IMG/VR virus record: IMGVR_UViG_3300027749_000051
Coordinates: 61,155-125,154 of that record
DNA: 64,000 bases
DNA from: a virus
Strand: one strand, 5' to 3'
In this document: positions 7,156 to 63,737 of the stretch, piece after piece
Position numbering within the stretch: position 1 is the first letter of the stretch
Layout of the letters: every line of letters starts with the position of its first letter
Position numbers and translations under genes: made by a program
Notes under the pieces: model-generated
Databases searched by the model: none
Told to the model about the DNA's origin: nothing
What the model saw: only the letters and a program-made list of their open reading frames with translations

Positions 7156-7190
7156 AATGATTTACTATATTTATAGTAAATCATTTTTTA
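7156..7190 (+). terminator. Perfect 13-bp hairpin with T-tract
   Basis: AATGATTTACTAT pairs with ATAGTAAATCATT around a 4-nt loop, followed by TTTTTA. It terminates the 4992-7128 group and shows that the in-frame ATG at 7157, inside the hairpin, is not the start of the next gene. Confidence 0.8.
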
Positions 7191-8650
7191 TGCTAAAAAC
7201 AATAGAATTAACTTTTAATATTGCAGGAAATGTTGGGAATTATTATAAAGAAAATAATATAGATATTAAATATAATAGTATTAATACTATACCAATTGAG
7301 AAAGTAAATCCTGATAGTCATTTAATGGTTGACGCCATTTGTGATGTTTGTGGTAAAGAGACTAAAGTACAATATAGAAGATATAATAAATCTATTAAAA
7401 ATGGGGGATATTACTCTTGTTCGTCTAAATGTGGAAAGAATAAGACAATAGAGACTAATATTGTTAAGTACGGGTCAAATTCATACTTTGAAAGTAATGA
7501 GTTTAAAGATAAATCAAAGAAAACATTTTTAACTAAATGGGGGGTAGATCATTTTAGACGAAGCGATCAATGGAAAGTTGAAAATAGTATTGCGGAAATT
7601 GAAAAACGAAAAAAAACAATATTTGATACATTTATCGGTGAAAATCCAAAAATTATTGGGCAAGATGGTGATAATTTTATAATTAGTTGTGAGATTCATG
7701 GGCAGTCAACAATACCTAAATCTATATTTGCAAATAGAAAAATAATTGGAACCGAATTTTGTACCATTTGTAAACCGATTGAATCTAATATTTCAGGAAA
7801 AGAAGTATTGTTGAAAAAGTTGATTTCTGAAATATATGATGGAAAAATTATTATTGGATATAAAATTGAACGAAAAGAAATTGATATCTTTTTACCTGAC
7901 ATTAATATTGGGTTTGAATTTAATGGGTTAAGATGGCACTCTGAATTATTTAAAGAAAAAGAATACCATATTAATAAGACTAATTTATGTAAATTGCATG
8001 GAATACGACTAATTCATATATTTGAAGATGATTTTGATTTTAAATTAGATATCGTTAAATCAATAATATCTAATGTTATTGGGAAAAGCGAAATAATTCC
8101 AGCAAGGAAAACAACAATTAAAAGAATAAATGAAAAGGATATTGTTAAAATATTTTTAAATGAAAATCATCTTCAAGGATTTGTTAACACGAATATTAAT
8201 TATGGGTTATATTATGACGGTGAATTAGTTAGTTTAATGACCTTCTCAAAATTAAGAAAAATTTTTAAAAATAAAATATTGGATAATAGTTATGAACTAG
8301 TGAGATTTTGTAATAAAATTGGTATCGGGGTTATAGGTGGGGCTTCAAAATTATTTAAGAATTTTTTAATTGAATATAATCCTAAAGATGTGATATCTTA
8401 TTGTGATATTTCTTGGGCGACTGGAGATTTGTATAAGAGATTAGGATTTGATTCTTTATGTATAACTCCACCAAATTATTATTATGTTATTAATAGAAAC
8501 CGAGAAAATAGAATAAAATATCAAAAACATAAATTGGTTAAACTCGGGTATGATGAAAATATGACCGAATCTAAAATTATGAATAGTAGGGGGTATTTTA
8601 GAATCTATAATTGTGGAAATGAGAAATACATTTATAAAAATACGAATTAA
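7190..8650 (+). CDS. Homing-type endonuclease with zinc ribbon and Vsr-like nuclease core
   Basis: A free-standing homing-like endonuclease, about 486 residues from Met at 7190 (preferred because the upstream ATG lies in the terminator hairpin). An N-terminal Cys4 zinc ribbon (CDVCGKE ... CSSKCGK) is followed by repeated K-S-K-KTFLTKWGVDHF-type NUMOD-like segments, then a PD-(D/E)XK/Vsr-like core: KIERKEIDIFLPD, IGFEFNGLRWHSE, and CKLHGIRLIHIFEDDF. The C-terminal domain (GGASKLFKNFL, ISYCDISWATGDLYKRLGF, TPPNYYYV) is common to phage homing nucleases. It is AT-richer than its neighbours and flanked by a terminator, consistent with mobile insertion between genes. Confidence 0.85.
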   Translation: MLKTIELTFNIAGNVGNYYKENNIDIKYNSINTIPIEKVNPDSHLMVDAICDVCGKETKVQYRRYNKSIKNGGYYSCSSKCGKNKTIETNIVKYGSNSYFESNEFKDKSKKTFLTKWGVDHFRRSDQWKVENSIAEIEKRKKTIFDTFIGENPKIIGQDGDNFIISCEIHGQSTIPKSIFANRKIIGTEFCTICKPIESNISGKEVLLKKLISEIYDGKIIIGYKIERKEIDIFLPDINIGFEFNGLRWHSELFKEKEYHINKTNLCKLHGIRLIHIFEDDFDFKLDIVKSIISNVIGKSEIIPARKTTIKRINEKDIVKIFLNENHLQGFVNTNINYGLYYDGELVSLMTFSKLRKIFKNKILDNSYELVRFCNKIGIGVIGGASKLFKNFLIEYNPKDVISYCDISWATGDLYKRLGFDSLCITPPNYYYVINRNRENRIKYQKHKLVKLGYDENMTESKIMNSRGYFRIYNCGNEKYIYKNTN

Positions 8651-22058: not shown

Positions 22059-23468
22059 TTAATATCGATATTCGTCTTTTTTGTAAGGACCATTAACATC
22101 GACTCCAAGATATTCTGACTGATCTGGTGTTAAGGTTGTTAACTTGATTCCTAATTGACCAATATGTAATCTTGCCACTTCTTCATCCAAATGTTTTGGT
22201 AATGTGTGAACACCTACAGGGTAATCATTTGTCGCCAATTCAATTTGAGCTAAGACTTGGTTGGTGAATGAGGTACTCATTACAAAAGATGGGTGACCTG
22301 TTGCACACCCTAAGTTAACTAATCTACCTTCAGCCAATAGATAGATTGAGTGTCCATCTTCGAAAGTATATTTATCAACCTGTGGTTTGATATTTGTTCT
22401 GATAACAGTTTTATCAGAATGTAATTTTTCTACTTGGATCTCATTATCGAAATGTCCGATATTACAAACAATTGCCTCATCCTTCATTTGTGACATGTGT
22501 TCCAATGTAATAACATCTTTATTACCTGTTGTGGTTACATAGATATTACCAACAGATAATGAATCTTCAATTGTCTGTACTTGGAACCCTTCCATTGATG
22601 CTTGTAATGCGCAGATGGGGTCAATCTCAGTTATGATAACTCGTGCTCCATAACTCTTCATAGACTTCGCACATCCTTTGCCAACATCACCATATCCTGC
22701 AATTACAACAACTTTACCAGCGATCATAACATCTGTTGCTCGTTTGATTCCATCAGCAAGTGATTCACGACAACCATATAAGTTATCGAATTTGGATTTG
22801 GTTACAGAGTCATTAACATTAAATGCTGGGAACAATAGTTTATCGTTTTCATACATTTGATATAATCTATGTACACCTGTTGTTGTTTCTTCAGATACTC
22901 CAATAATTCCTTCAACCGCATTTTCCCATCGTTCATTGTTAGATGATAGAATTTCTTTTAGAATATGGTTAAACTCATATTCGTCTTCACCATTGGTTGG
23001 AAGATCTAAGATGTTTGGATCTTTTTCAGCATCATACCCACGATGGATCATTAATGTTGCGTCGCCACCATCATCAACAATTAAGTTTGGCCCTTCACCA
23101 TTAGGAAATTCCAATGCTTTAGCGGTACACCACCAATATTCTTCTAATGTTTCACCTTTCCATGCAAAAACAGGAATACCTGCTTCAGCAATGGCTGCGG
23201 CAGCATGATCTTGTGTTGAGAAAATATTACAACTACACCATCTAACATCTGCTCCAAGTTCTTTTAATGTTTCAATTAACACTGCAGTTTGGATTGTCAT
23301 ATGTAATGACCCAGTAATTTTGTGTCCTGATAAAGGTTTAGTTTTACCATATTTCTCACGAAGAGACATAAGTCCTGGCATTTCTTTTTCTGCAATCTTA
23401 ATTTCTTTTCTTCCGTATTCTGCAAGATTAATATCTGCTACGGCATAGTCTGTAAATTCCATATTCAT
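22059..23468 (-). CDS. ahcY: Adenosylhomocysteinase
   Basis: 469 residues, full length. [50 protein letters not shown] and the NAD-binding [20 protein letters not shown] are diagnostic; the C-terminus ends in the usual KKDEYRY. The enzyme hydrolyses S-adenosylhomocysteine to adenosine and homocysteine, relieving product inhibition of methyltransferases. Start at 23468; a second Met two codons later is equally possible. Rare in phages, and its pairing with metK suggests that the host methylation pool is limiting during infection. Confidence 0.97.
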
Positions 23469-24172: not shown

Positions 24173-24703
24173 CTATGTTTTAGATTTATGATTTAATATT
24201 TCTTCAACCTTATAATCTTCCCAACTGCCAGCATCTATAGTTTTTTCTACCTTATGATTAAGGACATCTTCTATATCAGTTTCAGGAAAATTAAATACAA
24301 CCACAGGTTTTTCTATTTTATAATCGAGGACATTATCTATGTTACGGTTATCTCTGCCTTGGAAAGATAAAGTTTTTTCTACCTTATGATTGAGGACATC
24401 TTCTACTTCCGATTCATCTATAATATTTCTATGTCGAGGTGTATCTACTTTATAATTAAGGATATCTTCTACAAAAGAGGATAGGATAGGTTCAAACTCA
24501 TTTCGTTCCATTGAAAATATGGTAAAAAAATCAGAGAAAAACCACCATCTCCAATACAAGATTCCTCGTTTTTTATATTCTAAATACCAATACTTATTTT
24601 CTCTGTCAATAATCCATATGGAGTCTTCATATGGAATTATCTCAGTATGTTTCAGATCATTATATAGTTTATCAAATATTATTTTCTTTAATCTGGGGTT
24701 CAT
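24173..24703 (-). CDS. Array protein A: conserved domain plus five 22-residue units (untagged)
   Basis: 176 residues. Residues 1-80 are the family domain (MNPRLKKIIFDKLYNDLKHT, IPYEDSIWIIDRENKYWYLE, YWRWWFFSDFFTIFSMERNE). Then come units of exactly 22 residues starting VEDILNYKVDTP, VEDVLNHKVEKT, IDNVLDYKIEKP, IEDVLNHKVEKT, VEEILNHKSKT; the 10 residues between repeats are unrelated (for example RHRNIIDESE, LSFQGRDNRN). Repeats are more degenerate than in C, D and F. It lacks the tag: its Met replaces the Val that follows EE in tagged relatives. Function unknown. Third in an operon driven from 25975. Confidence 0.85.
   Translation of the reverse strand: MNPRLKKIIFDKLYNDLKHTEIIPYEDSIWIIDRENKYWYLEYKKRGILYWRWWFFSDFFTIFSMERNEFEPILSSFVEDILNYKVDTPRHRNIIDESEVEDVLNHKVEKTLSFQGRDNRNIDNVLDYKIEKPVVVFNFPETDIEDVLNHKVEKTIDAGSWEDYKVEEILNHKSKT
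24176..24472 (-). repeat. In-gene 66-bp array A, five degenerate repeats
   Basis: 36-bp repeat plus 30-bp variable segment, period 66 bp, four variable segments. Repeat copies have diverged at both DNA and protein level, most strongly the third. Confidence 0.85.
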
Positions 24704-24704
24704 T

Positions 24705-25253
24705 TTAATTAAGTATATTATCTACTTTAACAGGCCATGGGCAATAATCTGCTTTTGCTGTATTTACCTTATGATTCAGTACATCGTCCAATATTTTGTA
24801 GTTCTCAACCAATGATTTCATAGATGTTTCTCCATTATGGTTAAGTACATCTGCCGTCGGGTTTACGAATCCGCAATAACCGATCTTAGTTGCATCTACC
24901 TTATGATTAAGGATGTCTTCCTCTTTAGTGTAACCTGTTGTGTTTCGCCAAGTAGATATTGTTACTTTAGGGTTAAGGATGTCTTTCACCACTGGTGTTT
25001 GCGAATCGTTTGTAAAAAAGGATTTACTTACCTTATGATTAAGGATGTTTTCCACCTTAAGATGAGTAAGAAAATCTATACCATTAGATGTACTTACCTT
25101 ATGATTAAGGATGACTTCCACCGATGCGATGGCTGGACCAACACCAGTATCGGATGTGTTTACCTTATAATTAAGGATGTCTTCCACCAATGCAGAGAAA
25201 GCATTTGAAAGAAGAACAGATGTGCCTACCTTATGATTAAGGATGTCTTCCAC
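24705..25253 (-). repeat. In-gene 66-bp array B, nine repeats
   Basis: Exact 66-bp period over about 550 bp. The first four repeats (25253 downwards) share most of GGTGGAAGACATCCTTAATC at their start; the last three are strongly decayed. Confidence 0.88.
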
Positions 25254-25484
25254 CATAGAAGTTAGAAATGGTTTATACTCATTTTGTTCCAATGAGAATA
25301 GTTGGAAAAAATTATTGAAAAACTCCCATCTCCACCATAATGTTCCTGATTTTTCAAATTCAAAATACCAGTACTTTTCTTTTCTATCAATAAACCATAT
25401 CGCATTATTATATGGGATTATCTCCACATGTTTCAGATCGTTATATAGTTTATCTAATATAATTTTTTTTAATCTCTCGTTCAT
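24705..25484 (-). CDS. Array protein B: conserved domain plus nine 22-residue units (untagged)
   Basis: 259 residues, the longest array. The family domain (MNERLKKIILDKLYNDLKHV, IPYNNAIWFIDRKEKYWYFE, WWRWEFFNNFFQLFSLEQNE) spans 1-77. Nine repeats follow: VEDILNHKVGTS, VEDILNYKVNTS, VEVILNHKVSTS, VENILNHKVSKS, VKDILNPKVTIS, EEDILNHKVDAT, TADVLNHNGETS, LDDVLNHKVNTA, VDNILN. The eight variable 10-residue segments are mutually unrelated. Conservation falls steadily from the domain-proximal to the distal end. No tag. The stop is followed within 1 bp by the next array gene. Function unknown. Confidence 0.85.
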   Translation of the reverse strand: MNERLKKIILDKLYNDLKHVEIIPYNNAIWFIDRKEKYWYFEFEKSGTLWWRWEFFNNFFQLFSLEQNEYKPFLTSMVEDILNHKVGTSVLLSNAFSALVEDILNYKVNTSDTGVGPAIASVEVILNHKVSTSNGIDFLTHLKVENILNHKVSKSFFTNDSQTPVVKDILNPKVTISTWRNTTGYTKEEDILNHKVDATKIGYCGFVNPTADVLNHNGETSMKSLVENYKILDDVLNHKVNTAKADYCPWPVKVDNILN

Positions 25485-25487
25485 AGT

Positions 25488-25725
25488 TTATATTTTATTT
25501 ACCTTACGATTTAAGATTCTTTCTACCAATCCTTCAGGTGGAACTTCATCAAAGAATGTTGTTTTTACCTTACGATTTAAGATGTCTTCCACCCAGCCTT
25601 TGGCTTTACCTATGAAATTATTTGATGTATCTACCTTACGATTTAAGATGTCTTCCACCGGGTCGATCGATTGATATTCCCCATTGAAAGATGTATCTAC
25701 CTTACGATTTAAGATGTCTTCCACC
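25488..25725 (-). repeat. In-gene 66-bp array C, four repeats
   Basis: The first two repeats are identical over 36 bp and the third differs only at its far end; the last is degenerate. Three 30-bp variable segments unrelated to one another. Confidence 0.9.
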
Positions 25726-25955
25726 ATATCTCGTATAAGTGGCTCATACTCATCTCGTTCCAATGAAAACAGGTAGAAAAAATTATTGAAAAACTCCCAT
25801 CTCCACCACAGAGTTCCATTTTTATTCAATTTAAAGTACCAGTATTTTTCATTTGGATCTATTGCCCATATATTGCCATCATCGACAATAATTTCGGAGC
25901 CCTTCATATCGTTCAAAAGTTTATCAAATATTATTTTCTTTATCCTGTCGTTCAT
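25488..25955 (-). CDS. Array protein C: conserved domain plus four 22-residue units (untagged)
   Basis: 155 residues. Family domain MNDRIKKIIFDKLLNDMKGS ... WAIDPNEKYWYFKLNKNGTL, WWRWEFFNNFFYLFSLERDE (1-77), then VEDILNRKVDTS, VEDILNRKVDTS, VEDILNRKVKTT and the truncated VERILNRKVNKI. Variable segments FNGEYQSIDP, NNFIGKAKGW, FFDEVPPEGL. Untagged; first gene of the minus operon 25955-23794 under a host-type promoter. The three array genes here are separated by only 1-3 bp. Function unknown. Confidence 0.87.
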   Translation of the reverse strand: MNDRIKKIIFDKLLNDMKGSEIIVDDGNIWAIDPNEKYWYFKLNKNGTLWWRWEFFNNFFYLFSLERDEYEPLIRDMVEDILNRKVDTSFNGEYQSIDPVEDILNRKVDTSNNFIGKAKGWVEDILNRKVKTTFFDEVPPEGLVERILNRKVNKI

Positions 25956-28434: not shown

Positions 28435-28956
28435 ATGAACTTACAAGAAAACATACACAGGATTAAGGAAATGATGGGGATTAATGAAAAGCATGATCTC
28501 CTGAATAAACCTATCAAAGATATTATAGACCAAGTGGGAGGATATGGAACAGGATTCAACACCGATGAAGACGCCATAGAAGAAATAGAATATGTGGTAT
28601 CAAGTGATTTTCCTGAAGGTCTGAATAACATTCCAACTAAAGTAATCTTATATAGAGTTATATTATTGGAAGATGGTAAATCCATTAACGAGGATCAGGT
28701 TGGGGAACATTTCATTTCGGATACAAGACATATAGATAGATCGTTCTTGGAAAAGATAGATATATGGGACAATTGGGATGCGGACAATTCCAAGTTATGG
28801 TTACTACAATGTGAAACGGATGGGGATAATATAGATATAGAAAGAACATTAGGTAATAGAGTTCAATATCCTCGTGAGAATGAATTCACCCTGAAGAACG
28901 ATAAAAAGATTAGGTTGATAAAGAAAAAGATACTTAATAAAGAACAGCTTAGATGA
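28435..28956 (+). CDS. Tagged hypothetical protein (MNLQENIHRIKEMMGINE)
   Basis: 173 residues from the ATG at 28435; longer in-frame starts would overlap the divergent gene. Residues 1-18 are the LQEN-type tag with candidate cut GINE. The body contains VSSDFPEGLNNIPTKVILYR and VGEHFISDTRHIDRSFLEKI, reminiscent of small ADP-ribosyltransferase-like phage proteins (EFT at the end: ENEFTLKNDKKIRLIKKK). That similarity is tentative. ATGA overlap with array gene D. Confidence 0.65.
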   Translation: MNLQENIHRIKEMMGINEKHDLLNKPIKDIIDQVGGYGTGFNTDEDAIEEIEYVVSSDFPEGLNNIPTKVILYRVILLEDGKSINEDQVGEHFISDTRHIDRSFLEKIDIWDNWDADNSKLWLLQCETDGDNIDIERTLGNRVQYPRENEFTLKNDKKIRLIKKKILNKEQLR

Positions 28957-29483
28957 AATACATAATTACTGAGAGACAATATAGAGTGATATCCGAAGAA
29001 GTTAATCCTCGCATCAAAGAAATTATCTTCAATAAGTTATTGAATGATATGAAGGGTGTTGAGATTATTGAAGATAATGGTAGCATATGGGCAATAGATC
29101 CTGATGAGAAATACTGGTACTTTGAGTTGCAAGAAAACGGAACTTTATGGTGGAGATGGGGATTTTTCAATAATTTTTTCAAGTTATTTTCAATAGAAAG
29201 AAATGAGTTTGAACCACTTATGCGTGAACTGGTGGAAGACATCTTGAATCGCAAGGTAGTCACATCACTTCTAGTGCAATTCCTTGGTGACCTAATGGTG
29301 GAAGACATCTTGAATCGCAAGGTAGTCACATCCCACAGCGGACAGATTCACGTCCAAAGCCAGGTGGAAGACATCTTGAATCGCAAGGTAGTCACATCTA
29401 GTGGGCATGACCAAAGATTAACAATGTCAATAAAAGACATATTAAATCGTAGGAATAAGATAACCAAAGATGAGAACTTTTAA
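28953..29483 (+). CDS. Array protein D: tagged, conserved domain plus four units
   Basis: 176 residues. Tag MKYIITERQYRVISEE (1-16), family domain VNPRIKEIIFNKLLNDMKGV ... IWAIDPDEKYWYFELQENGT, WWRWGFFNNFFKLFSIERNE, then three identical 12-residue repeats VEDILNRKVVTS and a fourth degenerate one (IKDILNRRNKIT). Variable segments LLVQFLGDLM, HSGQIHVQSQ, SGHDQRLTMS. The repeat DNA is identical over 35-36 bp in the first three copies, including synonymous sites. Coupled by ATGA to the preceding tagged gene. Confidence 0.9.
   Translation: MKYIITERQYRVISEEVNPRIKEIIFNKLLNDMKGVEIIEDNGSIWAIDPDEKYWYFELQENGTLWWRWGFFNNFFKLFSIERNEFEPLMRELVEDILNRKVVTSLLVQFLGDLMVEDILNRKVVTSHSGQIHVQSQVEDILNRKVVTSSGHDQRLTMSIKDILNRRNKITKDENF
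29231..29459 (+). repeat. In-gene CRISPR-like array D, 36-bp repeats and 30-bp variable segments
   Basis: Repeats at 29231-29266, 29297-29332 and 29363-29398 are identical; a degenerate fourth occupies about 29429-29459. The 30-bp segments between are unrelated; the second has 17 G/C of 30, well above the surrounding sequence. Everything remains in one reading frame. Confidence 0.92.
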
Positions 29484-40761: not shown

Positions 40762-41142
40762 ATGAAATACATAATTACCGAAAATCAATATAGACTGATT
40801 AATGAAGAGGTTAGCCCTCGCCTGAAAGATTTTATTTTTAATAAGTTATTGGAAGATATGAAGGGAGCCGAACTTATTGAAGATAAATTTAGCACCATAT
40901 GGGCAATTGATCCTGACGAGAAGTACTGGTACTTTGTATTGCTAAAAGATGGTACTTTATGGTGGAGACCGGACTTTTTCCATAATTTCTTTAGGTTGTT
41001 TTCATTGGGACAAAAAGAATTTGAGCCACTTATACGAGATATGGTGGGAGACATCTTAAATCGCAAGGTAGGTAAATCAGGCGCTTTTGAATCCTTGCAT
41101 CCTCTTCAGGTGGGAGACATCTTAAATCGCAATAAGAAATGA
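40762..41142 (+). CDS. Array protein E: tagged, conserved domain plus two units
   Basis: 126 residues. Tag MKYIITENQYRLINEE, domain VSPRLKDFIFNKLLEDMKGA ... TIWAIDPDEKYWYFVLLKDG, WWRPDFFHNFFRLFSLGQKE, then VGDILNRKVGKS, variable GAFESLHPLQ, and truncated VGDILNRNKK. It is the minimal form of the array: one repeat, one variable segment, one terminal repeat. Coupled by ATGA to the tagged pterin dehydratase. Confidence 0.88.
   Translation: MKYIITENQYRLINEEVSPRLKDFIFNKLLEDMKGAELIEDKFSTIWAIDPDEKYWYFVLLKDGTLWWRPDFFHNFFRLFSLGQKEFEPLIRDMVGDILNRKVGKSGAFESLHPLQVGDILNRNKK
41043..41139 (+). repeat. In-gene array E, two repeats and one 30-bp segment
   Basis: Repeat copies at 41043-41078 and 41109 onward begin identically (GGTGGGAGACATCTTAAATC); the second is cut short by the stop codon. 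Confidence 0.8.
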
Positions 41143-44051: not shown

Positions 44052-44915
44052 ATGAAATACATTATAACCAAAGACCAATATAGATTGATTAATGAAGAGG
44101 TTAATCCAAGATTGAAGGAGATTATCTTCAAGAAGCTATTAAATGATCTGAAGGATGTTGAAATTATTGAAGATCCTGAAAATGGAGATATATGGGCCAT
44201 TGATCCTGAAAAAAAATATTGGTATTTTCAATTGAAAAAAAGCGGACTTTTATGGTGGAGATGGGATTTTTTCAATAATTTTTTCAGGGTGTTTTCAATG
44301 GAACAAAAACAATATGAACCACTTATAAGATCTATGGTGGAAGACCTATTAAATCGTAAGGTAGTCACATCTGTTAAGACAGGTGCTAAAGAGGTTGAGG
44401 TGGTGGAAGACCTATTAAATCGTAAGGTAGGCACATCTGATGGACGTAATTCTGTTCTTAAGGCTAAGGTGGAAGACCTATTAAATCGTAAGGTAGGCAC
44501 ATCCTATTTTAAATGGTCCAATAATGATGATCTGGTGGAAGACCTATTAAATCGTAAGGTAGGATCATCACTTAAAGAAGATTTGGCGGTATGGTTTGGA
44601 ACAAAGAAAAAACCAAAAGGTAGCAAACAACCTGCAGGACCTTGGGTTAATATATGTCGTAAAGATAAAGACGGAAAACATCCTCCTTGTGGTAGATCTG
44701 AAGCAAGTGATAAGGGATATCCAAAATGTCGTGCGGCTGGTGTTGCAGGTAAGATGAGCGACTCAGAAAAAAAATCGGCTTGTCAACAAAAAAGAAAAGC
44801 AGAAAAATCACATTCTAAATCAGGAACTGGAAACAAACCTAAGATGACTCATTATGAACCAAAAAATGAGCAATTACATCCTATTATTAGAAGATCAATA
44901 AGAGAATCTCTTTAA
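44052..44915 (+). CDS. Array protein F: tagged, conserved domain, four units, DUF5872-like C-terminus
   Basis: 287 residues. Tag MKYIITKDQYRLINEE, domain VNPRLKEIIFKKLLNDLKDV ... IWAIDPEKKYWYFQLKKSGL, WWRWDFFNNFFRVFSMEQKQ, then VEDLLNRKVVTS, VEDLLNRKVGTS, VEDLLNRKVGTS, VEDLLNRKVGSS with segments VKTGAKEVEV, DGRNSVLKAK, YFKWSNNDDL. From about 180 a Lys/Cys-rich domain follows (LKEDLAVWFGTKKKPKGSKQ, GPWVNICRKDKDGKHPPCGR, YPKCRAAGVAGKMSDSEKKS), the DUF5872-like module of phage proteins. Here the array is internal, not terminal. Confidence 0.9.
   Translation: MKYIITKDQYRLINEEVNPRLKEIIFKKLLNDLKDVEIIEDPENGDIWAIDPEKKYWYFQLKKSGLLWWRWDFFNNFFRVFSMEQKQYEPLIRSMVEDLLNRKVVTSVKTGAKEVEVVEDLLNRKVGTSDGRNSVLKAKVEDLLNRKVGTSYFKWSNNDDLVEDLLNRKVGSSLKEDLAVWFGTKKKPKGSKQPAGPWVNICRKDKDGKHPPCGRSEASDKGYPKCRAAGVAGKMSDSEKKSACQQKRKAEKSHSKSGTGNKPKMTHYEPKNEQLHPIIRRSIRESL
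44336..44569 (+). repeat. In-gene CRISPR-like array F, four 36-bp repeats
   Basis: Repeats at 44336-44371, 44402-44437, 44468-44503 and 44534-44569; copies 2 and 3 identical, 1 and 4 differ by a few bases near the 3' end. Three unrelated 30-bp segments. Confidence 0.92.
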
Positions 44916-52984: not shown

Positions 52985-53629
52985 ATGAAATCAATTCAAA
53001 TAACCGAATCACAACTTAATAATCTTGTTAAGGAAATCTTATCAGAAGATGTTAATCCAAAACTTGCAAAGATCGCAATGGGTAAGCTCTATGATGACAT
53101 TAAAGATGCCGAGGTTATTCCATATAGAAGTTCCGTTTGGATTATTGATAGAAAGAATAAGTATTGGTATATCGAATATAGAGATGGTGGAGCAATGTAT
53201 TGGAGACGGGATTTCTTCCAAGATTTTTTCAATATGTTCTCAATGAAGGATAAGGATTTTGAGCCTCTTTTAGTCACCATGATGGAAGATATTTTAAATA
53301 ATTATAAAGACATTTTAAAAAATATTGAGAAACCAGAATATACATCAGTAGAAGATGACCTCCGAAAAAATAATGGGGACACATTTATTTCACCCACATC
53401 TTTAGGGTATAACACAGGTTATGAAGATATCCCCAATCAGAAGGTAAAATCATCAGATCCATCATATAATAGAGAAACTCATACGGTGGGGAGCATTCTG
53501 AAAAATAATACAACCTCACCAAAAACAGATGTGGAAGATGTTCTAAAACATAAAGTAAAAACCCCAATGCCAGGATTTTTATCCTCAACTAATCCTTTGG
53601 ATAAAGTCCTAAAATCAACAGAACAATGA
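52985..53629 (+). CDS. Array-family protein G: tagged, conserved domain, decayed array
   Basis: 214 residues. Tag MKSIQITESQLNNLVKEILS ED, domain VNPKLAKIAMGKLYDDIKDA ... VWIIDRKNKYWYIEYRDGGA, YWRRDFFQDFFNMFSMKDKD. The C-terminal part still shows decayed units (MEDILNNYKDIL, VEDDLRKNNGDT, YEDIPNQKVKSS, VEDVLKHKVKTP, LDKVLKSTEQ), but the spacing varies from 15 to 24 residues, so the exact period is lost. Shows what an old array looks like. ATGA overlap with the next gene. Confidence 0.8.
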   Translation: MKSIQITESQLNNLVKEILSEDVNPKLAKIAMGKLYDDIKDAEVIPYRSSVWIIDRKNKYWYIEYRDGGAMYWRRDFFQDFFNMFSMKDKDFEPLLVTMMEDILNNYKDILKNIEKPEYTSVEDDLRKNNGDTFISPTSLGYNTGYEDIPNQKVKSSDPSYNRETHTVGSILKNNTTSPKTDVEDVLKHKVKTPMPGFLSSTNPLDKVLKSTEQ

Positions 53630-54252: not shown

Positions 54253-54608
54253 AATACATTATAACCAAAGGACAACTACATAAAATTGCTTATCAACTAT
54301 TGGATGATCAGTTAAAGAATAATGGTGGATTTGAAGAAAACGAAGATTATGGTAATCATCGTTTTTCATTAGAAGATAAGAATGGAGATAGAATAATATC
54401 GGCAATCCATTATTCTGAAGAAAATGGAAGAGGAGAGACTCATGCATTTATTGGATGGAGGCTTATTCACACGATGTCTAAATTATTTTCAATTCGTCCA
54501 ACAAAAGCCGTTGATATTATTGGAGATTGGTTAAGTGAAACATTAAATCTTGAGATAGATGAGATTGATTTTGACAACACACATAAACCAGATAGTGACG
54601 ATTATTAA
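54249..54608 (+). CDS. Tagged hypothetical protein, 119 aa
   Basis: Tag MKYIITKGQLHKIAYQLLDD. Body: FSLEDKNGDRIISAIHYSEE, HAFIGWRLIHTMSKLFSIRP, VDIIGDWLSETLNLEIDEID. The layout (tag, small beta part, FSI, C-terminal helix) resembles 57211. Stop and next start share one base (54608). Confidence 0.7.
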   Translation: MKYIITKGQLHKIAYQLLDDQLKNNGGFEENEDYGNHRFSLEDKNGDRIISAIHYSEENGRGETHAFIGWRLIHTMSKLFSIRPTKAVDIIGDWLSETLNLEIDEIDFDNTHKPDSDDY

Positions 54609-54988
54609 TGAAATACATTATAACTGAAAAACAACACCATCAGATTAGCGATAGAATAATTGATATTGCAATGGATAAACTTTATGATGATCTTAAAGTC
54701 GTAAAAATTATCCCATATCGCGGAGATGTCTGGTTTATTGACCCGAATACAAAAGAATGGTATTTTAAATATGGGCAAGATGAGGATGGAAGAAATGGAG
54801 TCTTAACCTATAGAGCAGACATTTTTGAAAACTTTTTCAGGATATTCTCAATGATGTTATCAGATTATGAACCCCTCTTAATTGATTTGGTTTTTAATGT
54901 GGTTGAAGAACCAATAGTGGATGTCCAAATTAGTAGATCAAACAAATCCCAAGAAGTTAATGATGTTCTTGACTCAATTAAGAAATAA
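54608..54988 (+). CDS. Array-family protein H: tagged, conserved domain, no array
   Basis: 126 residues. Tag MKYIITEKQHHQISDRIIDI, domain AMDKLYDDLKVVKIIPYRGD, VWFIDPNTKEWYFKYGQDED, TYRADIFENFFRIFSMMLSD, ending with one unit-like end (VNDVLDSIKK). Confirms that the N-terminal domain exists without repeats. Last gene of the coupled run 52985-54988. Confidence 0.75.
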   Translation: MKYIITEKQHHQISDRIIDIAMDKLYDDLKVVKIIPYRGDVWFIDPNTKEWYFKYGQDEDGRNGVLTYRADIFENFFRIFSMMLSDYEPLLIDLVFNVVEEPIVDVQISRSNKSQEVNDVLDSIKK

Positions 54989-63387: not shown

Positions 63388-63460
63388 GGTTGGGTAGCTC
63401 AGAGAGTAGAGCAATGTCTTAAAGAAACATGTGCCAGGGGTGCAATTCCTCTCCCAACCA
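63388..63460 (+). tRNA. tRNA-like gene with degenerate D- and T-loops
   Basis: Acceptor GGTTGGG (63388-63394) pairs perfectly with CCCAACC (63453-63459), discriminator A. D-stem GCTC/GAGC is intact, but the D-loop (AGAGAGTA) lacks GG. Anticodon arm ATGTC-TTAAAGA-AACAT has one C-A mismatch; by position the anticodon is AAA. T-loop TGCAATT departs from TTCRANT. Total 73 nt, CCA not encoded. May be a decayed tRNA or an unusual functional one. Confidence 0.6.
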
Positions 63461-63737
63461 CGTATATGAGGTAAGGTTTTTTAATGGTGGTTGTTCGTGA
63501 TACCTACAAAATTTTTTGTCCTCTTTAAAAAAATAAAAAATCTAACATAAAATCACGGAGGATTAAAGAGAGTGGTGACTTATCTCAAACCCGCCTTAAG
63601 GGTTAAAATAACCTAACCGTTTTGACGTTATCGGTGAACTATAAAAAAAACGAAGTACGGGGACAAATACCTGTACTTATGGGAAATGGTAATGTATTCC
63701 AGTCAAACAAGTTTACTTTCGTAAATTGTTAAAGTAT
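63461..63737 (+). ncRNA. Non-coding stretch, possible structured RNA
   Basis: No gene. Contains a palindromic AAGTAC...GTACTT hairpin (about 63652-63680) and a GGGTTAAAATAACC hairpin (about 63600-63613), and ends in a terminator. Lies in the same transcript as the preceding tRNA. Confidence 0.3.

Follow-up and report, generated by a model that had tools for sequence, protein, structure and literature searches.

How does a repeat array inside a protein-coding gene come to be homogeneous next to the conserved domain of its protein and decayed at the far end? The question is raised by a phage gene at 24705..25484, in whose product copies of a 12-residue motif alternate with variable segments of 10 residues. 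The window analyzed here comprises the final 64 kb of an IMG/VR virus record of 125 kb, and positions given without a further label refer to it. An initial annotation had likened the gradient to the polarity of CRISPR arrays and proposed that units are added next to the conserved N-terminal coding region, which would then act like a leader. Our main reading, to which we assign a probability of roughly 70%, is that the repeats and spacers form a translated array with growth in one direction, by a process resembling CRISPR adaptation. We know of no system that translates a repeat-spacer array growing at one end into protein, and a literature search likewise returned no described system matching a translated array with such growth.

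The array gene, its paralogues, and its relatives

The nine repeats of the array follow each other with an exact period of 22 aa / 66 bp (Table 1). As initially annotated, the first repeats are close copies and the last ones are far from consensus, identity to the rest of the array falling with repeat position (r = −0.90). The truncated terminal repeat, VDNILN*, probably represents the original C terminus of the gene. In the AF2 model of the paralogue at 25488-25955, the predicted domain fold is a1-b1-b2-b3-b4-a2-a3, and repeat 1 forms the C-terminal half of a3, its last helix. The array therefore resembles the C-terminal end of the protein itself, extended again and again.

Table 1. Coordinates of the array gene, its repeats and spacers, and its paralogues. 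Identity is the mean nucleotide identity of each full repeat to the rest of the array.
Feature	Position	Strand	Repeat start	Identity	Remarks
Array gene	24705..25484	-			259 aa; conserved domain of ~75 aa and nine-repeat array
Conserved N-terminal domain	25255..25484	-			position is that of the leader in a CRISPR array
Repeat 1	25219..25254	-	25253	0.82	36 nt, GGTGGAAGACATCCTTAATCATAAGGTAGGCACATC; peptide VEDILNHKVGTS
Spacer 1	25189..25218	-			30 nt, encodes VLLSNAFSAL
Repeat 2	25153..25188	-	25187	0.81	peptide VEDILNYKVNTS
Spacer 2	25123..25152	-			DTGVGPAIAS
Repeat 3	25087..25122	-	25121	0.81	peptide VEVILNHKVSTS
Spacer 3	25057..25086	-			NGIDFLTHLK
Repeat 4	25021..25056	-	25055	0.79	peptide VENILNHKVSKS
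Spacer 4	24991..25020	-			FFTNDSQTPV
Repeat 5	24955..24990	-	24989	0.71	peptide VKDILNPKVTIS
Spacer 5	24925..24954	-			TWRNTTGYTK
Repeat 6	24889..24924	-	24923	0.75	peptide EEDILNHKVDAT
Spacer 6	24859..24888	-			KIGYCGFVNP
Repeat 7	24823..24858	-	24857	0.65	decayed, peptide TADVLNHNGETS
Spacer 7	24793..24822	-			MKSLVENYKI
Repeat 8	24757..24792	-	24791	0.69	peptide LDDVLNHKVNTA
Spacer 8	24727..24756	-			KADYCPWPVK
Terminal repeat	24705..24726	-	24725		truncated, VDNILN*
Paralogue	24173..24703	-			four spacers; array end VEEILNHKSKT*
Paralogue	25488..25955	-			three spacers; array end VERILNRKVNKI*; structure predicted
Paralogue	28953..29483	+			three spacers; MKYIITE start; array end IKDILNRRNKITKDENF*
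Paralogue	40762..41142	+			one spacer; array end VGDILNRNKK*
Paralogue	44052..44915	+			three spacers, then Lys-rich C-terminal region (phrog_23735)
Paralogue	52985..53629	+			array decayed
Paralogue	54608..54988	+			essentially without array

The 125-kb contig carries eight paralogues, namely the 24705..25484 gene and seven others. The earlier remark that other arrays also end in a truncated or degenerate repeat holds for the genes starting at 24173, 25488, 28953, and 40762; at 44052, the array instead runs into an unrelated Lys-rich C-terminal region (44500-44915, plus strand) with no decayed end repeat. The peptide MKYIITE/K(D/N/K)Q opens window genes of different kinds (at 40762, 41139, 41421, 44052, and 54608, plus strand), a common N-terminal tag, perhaps for capsid targeting. 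Elsewhere, the window encodes an S-adenosylhomocysteine hydrolase (22059-23468, minus strand; Pfam E 2.5e-145), a homing (HNH) endonuclease (7157-8650, plus strand; PHROG 3339), and a tRNA-Phe with the unusual anticodon AAA (63388-63461, plus strand).

The 24705..25484 gene belongs to no family in Pfam, PHROGs, or NCBIfam, tblastn found no family member among the INPHARED phages, and neither the protein nor the repeat-pair pattern was found in 84,980 prokaryote genomes. A single-sequence query of IMG/VR with the window protein gave no match; an alignment query succeeded and returned 28 loci, a phage often being represented by several paralogues. Homologues are present in about 30 IMG/VR contigs, and further scans increased the number of close relatives. 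Foldseek against viral models placed the family among uncharacterized proteins of uncultured phages only. Against the PDB, Foldseek gave no match with E < 1 and no similar solved fold, and its matches, like sequence matches to designed propellers and to the Crov588 repeats of 22 residues, were judged not meaningful. Distant paralogues (L031/L086 and L082/L084) have longer arrays with another repeat type (IEDVINNGVKET) and looser spacing.

The repeat-insert unit and the site of its variation

Neighboring repeats are spaced by 66 nt in 222 of 232 cases and by 63, 69, or 72 nt in the others; all spacings are multiples of three, and none breaks the frame. An IMG/VR scan for two near-consensus repeats gave a 30-nt spacer in 77 of 77 matches, with 27-33 nt allowed. 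In 146 of 178 distinct spacer/base pairs, the base before the repeat is G, even though the closing codon may be any NNG; within the domain, this G falls at the third position of the Trp or Met codon just ahead of repeat 1. On the other side, codon 12 of the repeat varies freely at its third position. Repeat 1 thus begins with the final base of the Met codon ahead of it and stops after two bases of codon 12, and these boundaries define a unit of 36-nt repeat plus 30-nt insert. The comparisons establish the moving unit as a DNA unit, out of phase with the codons, that joins a 36-nt repeat to 30 nt of unique sequence. Codon choice within the repeat is also far from that of the phage: V1 is encoded by GTG in 45 of 46 arrays, compared with 11% in the phage's genes, and T11 (ACA) and K8 (AAG) are also strongly non-random. 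Between groups, codons are identical with a frequency of 0.65 in the repeat (0.43 expected) and 0.53 in the domain (0.47 expected).

The decay seen in the window recurs in the family. Homogeneity of the repeats declines away from the domain in 38 of 40 homologous arrays, with a mean r of −0.61 (shuffle sd 0.07), or −0.51 when the last two repeats are left out. One exception is a short array of the window (r = +0.3). Another is L111 (1700-3060, minus strand), a diverged family member whose 16 inserts are spaced by exactly 22 aa; it departs from the polarity in that its first repeat is divergent and its insert VSINKFIPRD is duplicated.

The units themselves were analyzed for order and commonness in 27 distinct arrays from six orthologue groups; no homologue with units of the 24705..25484 array was found, and the comparison rests on the arrays of its relatives. 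Units common to two arrays occur in the same order in 211 pairs, with no conflicts. Of 47 comparable array pairs, 42 differ at the proximal end and 18 at the distal end. Units become more common the farther they lie from the domain (r = 0.30; 20,000 within-array shuffles gave no value as high), and 11 of the 27 arrays begin with a private unit, compared with 6.2 expected. A further set comprised 61 close array pairs, whose domains differ by no more than 10% and which have one or more units in common; here, unshared units are more numerous proximally in 42 pairs and distally in 6 (means of 2.9 and 0.7 unshared units, respectively). L075 and L094, whose domains are identical, already have different first units; this orthologous pair, like L009/L012 and L022/L023, has distal units in common and differs in proximal ones. 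The initial annotation had asked for repeat copies to be aligned by position in many homologous genes and whether closely related phages differ mainly in the domain-proximal units, with variation and degeneration random along the array as the refuting outcome. Such randomness was not seen, and the data support its proposal that units are added next to the conserved N-terminal region.

Internal gains and losses are frequent, as 35 of 95 internal gaps differ. An internal deletion in L099 left a recombined repeat that has its start from one unit and its end from the next. Across these relatives, the comparisons establish that units differ mainly beside the domain, that their order is fixed, and that internal units are lost via recombination between repeats; the proximal bias is strong but not absolute. 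This is the pattern of a CRISPR array, with polarized growth at one end and conserved distal units. Units common to different paralogue groups, for example, DVEMSVMNYV and THMY.NGEI, are almost all distal or terminal, the exception being one early unit common to the related pair L016/L028. Within a single phage (L115), two paralogues have one unit in common. The distal or terminal location of such units indicates that the paralogues carried their oldest units when they diverged and that their later gains differed. Private units at the proximal end bear local repeat variants (G28 in group X, TTGAATAGT in group Z). In some arrays repeat 1 differs from repeat 2, which under the growth model requires later change or deletion.

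The same polarity could arise with no new acquisition if ready-made units were exchanged, homologous recombination between arrays via the domain and the repeats swapping proximal segments, since the upstream flank would be conserved and the downstream flank would not. Recombination within arrays is indeed evident from the internal gains and losses and the recombined repeat, only the upstream flank is conserved between paralogues, and the sampled pool of relatives is small. However, exchange between paralogues sits poorly with the distal or terminal location of the units that they have in common, save the one in L016/L028, and with proximal private units whose repeat variant is the local one and not one from a different array. 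Nor does it account readily for the early proximal difference between L075 and L094 or for the absence of order conflicts, and it leaves the first source of the 30-nt inserts unexplained. We therefore regard exchange as unlikely and growth beside the domain as the better explanation.

Relations, origin, and selection of the inserts

Two inserts from one array agree no better than unrelated inserts do (8.4 and 8.1 matches of 30, respectively), whereas neighboring repeats are 85% identical. Among 827 within-array pairs there is one duplicate and no intermediate. Because the inserts within an array are mutually unrelated, slippage is not their source. As in CRISPR arrays, unique spacers of constant length lie between short direct repeats. 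No insert matched the DNA of relatives, including that of the same phage, beyond a reversed-sequence control, and none matched INPHARED above chance. Exact IMG/VR scans with eight spacers returned only the arrays themselves (for one pair, only the L044 array). In the arrays compared, new units carry the repeat variant of the local array, while their inserts are related neither to one another nor to other units nor to the phage DNA examined.

Third-position GC is 0.34 in the spacers, compared with 0.22 in phage genes, the GC content of whole inserts exceeds that of the surrounding DNA in all records compared, and spacer GC drops slightly with age, from 0.406 to 0.383. These values are consistent with, but not proof of, an origin of the inserts from foreign DNA. 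The base composition of the inserts is frame-coherent, with an in-frame weight of ~60% in a mixture model. Their synonymous codon choice fits random DNA equally well, and these data do not separate an in-frame coding origin from later selection on the peptide. In 43 clusters of common inserts, 21 silent and 21 replacement changes give a dN/dS of ~0.27, which indicates that the encoded peptides matter. The comparisons show that the reading frame is kept and that inserted peptides are under purifying selection once present.

Comparison with CRISPR adaptation and possible functions

Unit order, proximal change, copying of the local repeat, and unrelated inserts together argue that the arrays grow in a manner like CRISPR adaptation. 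The two have in common 36-nt repeats that are almost the same, 30-nt spacers that are unique, growth at one end with copying of the local repeat, a degenerate terminal repeat, and a fixed order with internal deletions. Unlike CRISPR arrays, the phage array lies inside a protein-coding gene, is translated, and always keeps the frame, and it has no cas1/cas2 on the phage contigs and no non-coding leader; no protospacers were found. Cas1/Cas2 (PF01867, PF09827) were found in none of 27 virus records, which may be fragments, and Rfam CRISPR-DR models gave no match above threshold on the 24705..25484 array. The sequence upstream of the newest repeat is the coding domain. Its likeness to a leader, as initially annotated, holds for position and does not extend to constraint, since synonymous and DNA constraint in the last 20 domain codons is not above that in the rest. 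Given that Cas1/Cas2 on the contigs, a non-coding leader, and a crRNA-like hairpin are missing and that no protospacer was found, we do not file these arrays as CRISPR.

The closest points of comparison come from flavobacteria. Flavobacterium columnare VI-B has a 36-nt repeat, and flavobacterial spacers are printed as 29-30 nt, those of VI-B as 30 nt (PMC5395568); II-C and VI-B repeats have a common leader-distal GTTGT motif, and VI-B arrays acquire spacers using II-C Cas1 in trans (PMC8092290). Like both repeat types of F. columnare, the phage repeats are 36 nt long, and like VI-B spacers, the inserts are 30 nt; the ..ACAAC end is likewise oriented away from the growing end (PMC5395568, PMC8092290). 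When scored in register against the repeats printed in PMC5395568, the phage repeats match VI-B in the same orientation at 17-25 of 36 positions in most clades, with a maximum of 25/36, and background 36-mers reach at least 25/36 with P = 1.3e-6 per 36-mer. The repeats of the window array match VI-B at only 17-22 of 36 positions. In several phage arrays the 3' 12 bases, GGTATCTACAAC, are identical to those of F. columnare VI-B. Same-register matches to II-C and V repeats are lower, at 8-18 (II-C, 8-15/36). Unlike in VI-B, the central stem is not kept, and RNA folding is weak, approximately −2 to −5 kcal/mol for most phage repeats compared with −11 to −12 kcal/mol; the VI-B hairpin is mostly not kept, one clade reaching −10.2 kcal/mol with a different stem. 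We take the resemblance to VI-B as a lead to the enzyme and not as membership; it suggests, though it does not prove, that host adaptation proteins insert the units.

In the mechanism that we propose, an integrase of the Cas1-Cas2 kind would measure a 30-nt piece, join it at the junction of the domain and repeat 1, and duplicate repeat 1, with the end of the domain-coding sequence serving as the leader. The 36 + 30 geometry, the orientation, and the in-register similarity to VI-B make host Bacteroidota adaptation proteins the first, still tentative, candidate for the inserting enzyme; an unknown enzyme, of the phage or the host, has similar odds. As flavobacterial spacers are 29-30 nt long and no frame-breaking units are seen, the growth model also requires selection for frame.

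The same geometry, orientation, and repeat similarity also speak for a host-mediated CRISPR array proper, in which the mRNA is cut to crRNAs for loading into host Cas13b or Cas9, directed against rival phages. Mini-CRISPR arrays without cas genes do exist in archaeal viruses and, like the arrays described here, lie on viruses for which use of the host machinery has been proposed, but they have 1-2 spacers, a leader and repeat like those of the host, and targets among related viruses (PMC6858448). The phage arrays, by contrast, mostly lack the hairpin, no targets were found in the DNA of relatives, in INPHARED, or in the exact IMG/VR scans, and their spacers are selected at the peptide level with a spacing that never breaks the frame, all of which makes a CRISPR array proper very unlikely. 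RNA anti-CRISPRs, which are solitary repeat units (PMC10651486), are likewise phage-carried mimics of CRISPR repeats, but these are small non-coding RNAs rather than growing, translated arrays.

Many CRISPR-like elements are tandem repeats, some of them in coding genes (PMC5294841), and they resemble the phage arrays in their repeat-spacer appearance, their occasional location within an ORF, and their lack of cas genes. The family might accordingly be an ordinary tandem-repeat protein that arose by slippage or unequal crossing-over, followed by divergence, with homogenization stronger at one end, and L111 does contain one duplicated unit. Slippage would have copied the inserts too, however, and this is contradicted by the near-complete lack of similar within-array pairs. 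The false CRISPRs of PMC5294841 are without spacer diversity, whereas the phage arrays are polar and their inserts all differ. Moreover, the repeat boundaries are out of codon phase, and Tandem Repeats Finder reported the array at 44333 only and not that of 24705..25484. This origin is hardly tenable. Targeted hypermutation of the 30-nt segments, as in a DGR, would also yield variable segments within a conserved frame, but it is least credible of all, given that no reverse transcriptase (PF00078) was found in the 27 virus records, that inserts are nearly unchanged and in the same order between phages, and that they have no template-like relation to each other.

Returning to growth by captured units, function is the weakest step of the explanation. 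The product may be used as a protein, the domain bearing a diversifying set of 10-residue peptides; this is our best guess, held at less than even odds. Somewhat more doubtful is a role of the gene as a decoy that diverts host adaptation events to a site where they are tolerated and the frame is preserved, and use as guide RNA is less likely again, to the point of being improbable. The full picture, that of a translated adaptive array in which a coding sequence of phages, probably of Bacteroidota, is the substrate of CRISPR-type integration and foreign 30-nt pieces are recorded beside the domain and displayed as 10-residue peptides, is likewise put forward tentatively.

If true, this would be the first case in which the heritable, directional capture of short DNA, known only from CRISPR, is written directly into protein, and the translated array would be a natural recording array with a reading frame. 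The array family provides a test of how far integrases of the Cas1-Cas2 type reach outside CRISPR loci, and the origin of the inserts and the integrating enzyme become directly testable by sequence data. For the phages, such arrays may represent a new strategy of counter-defense or recognition.
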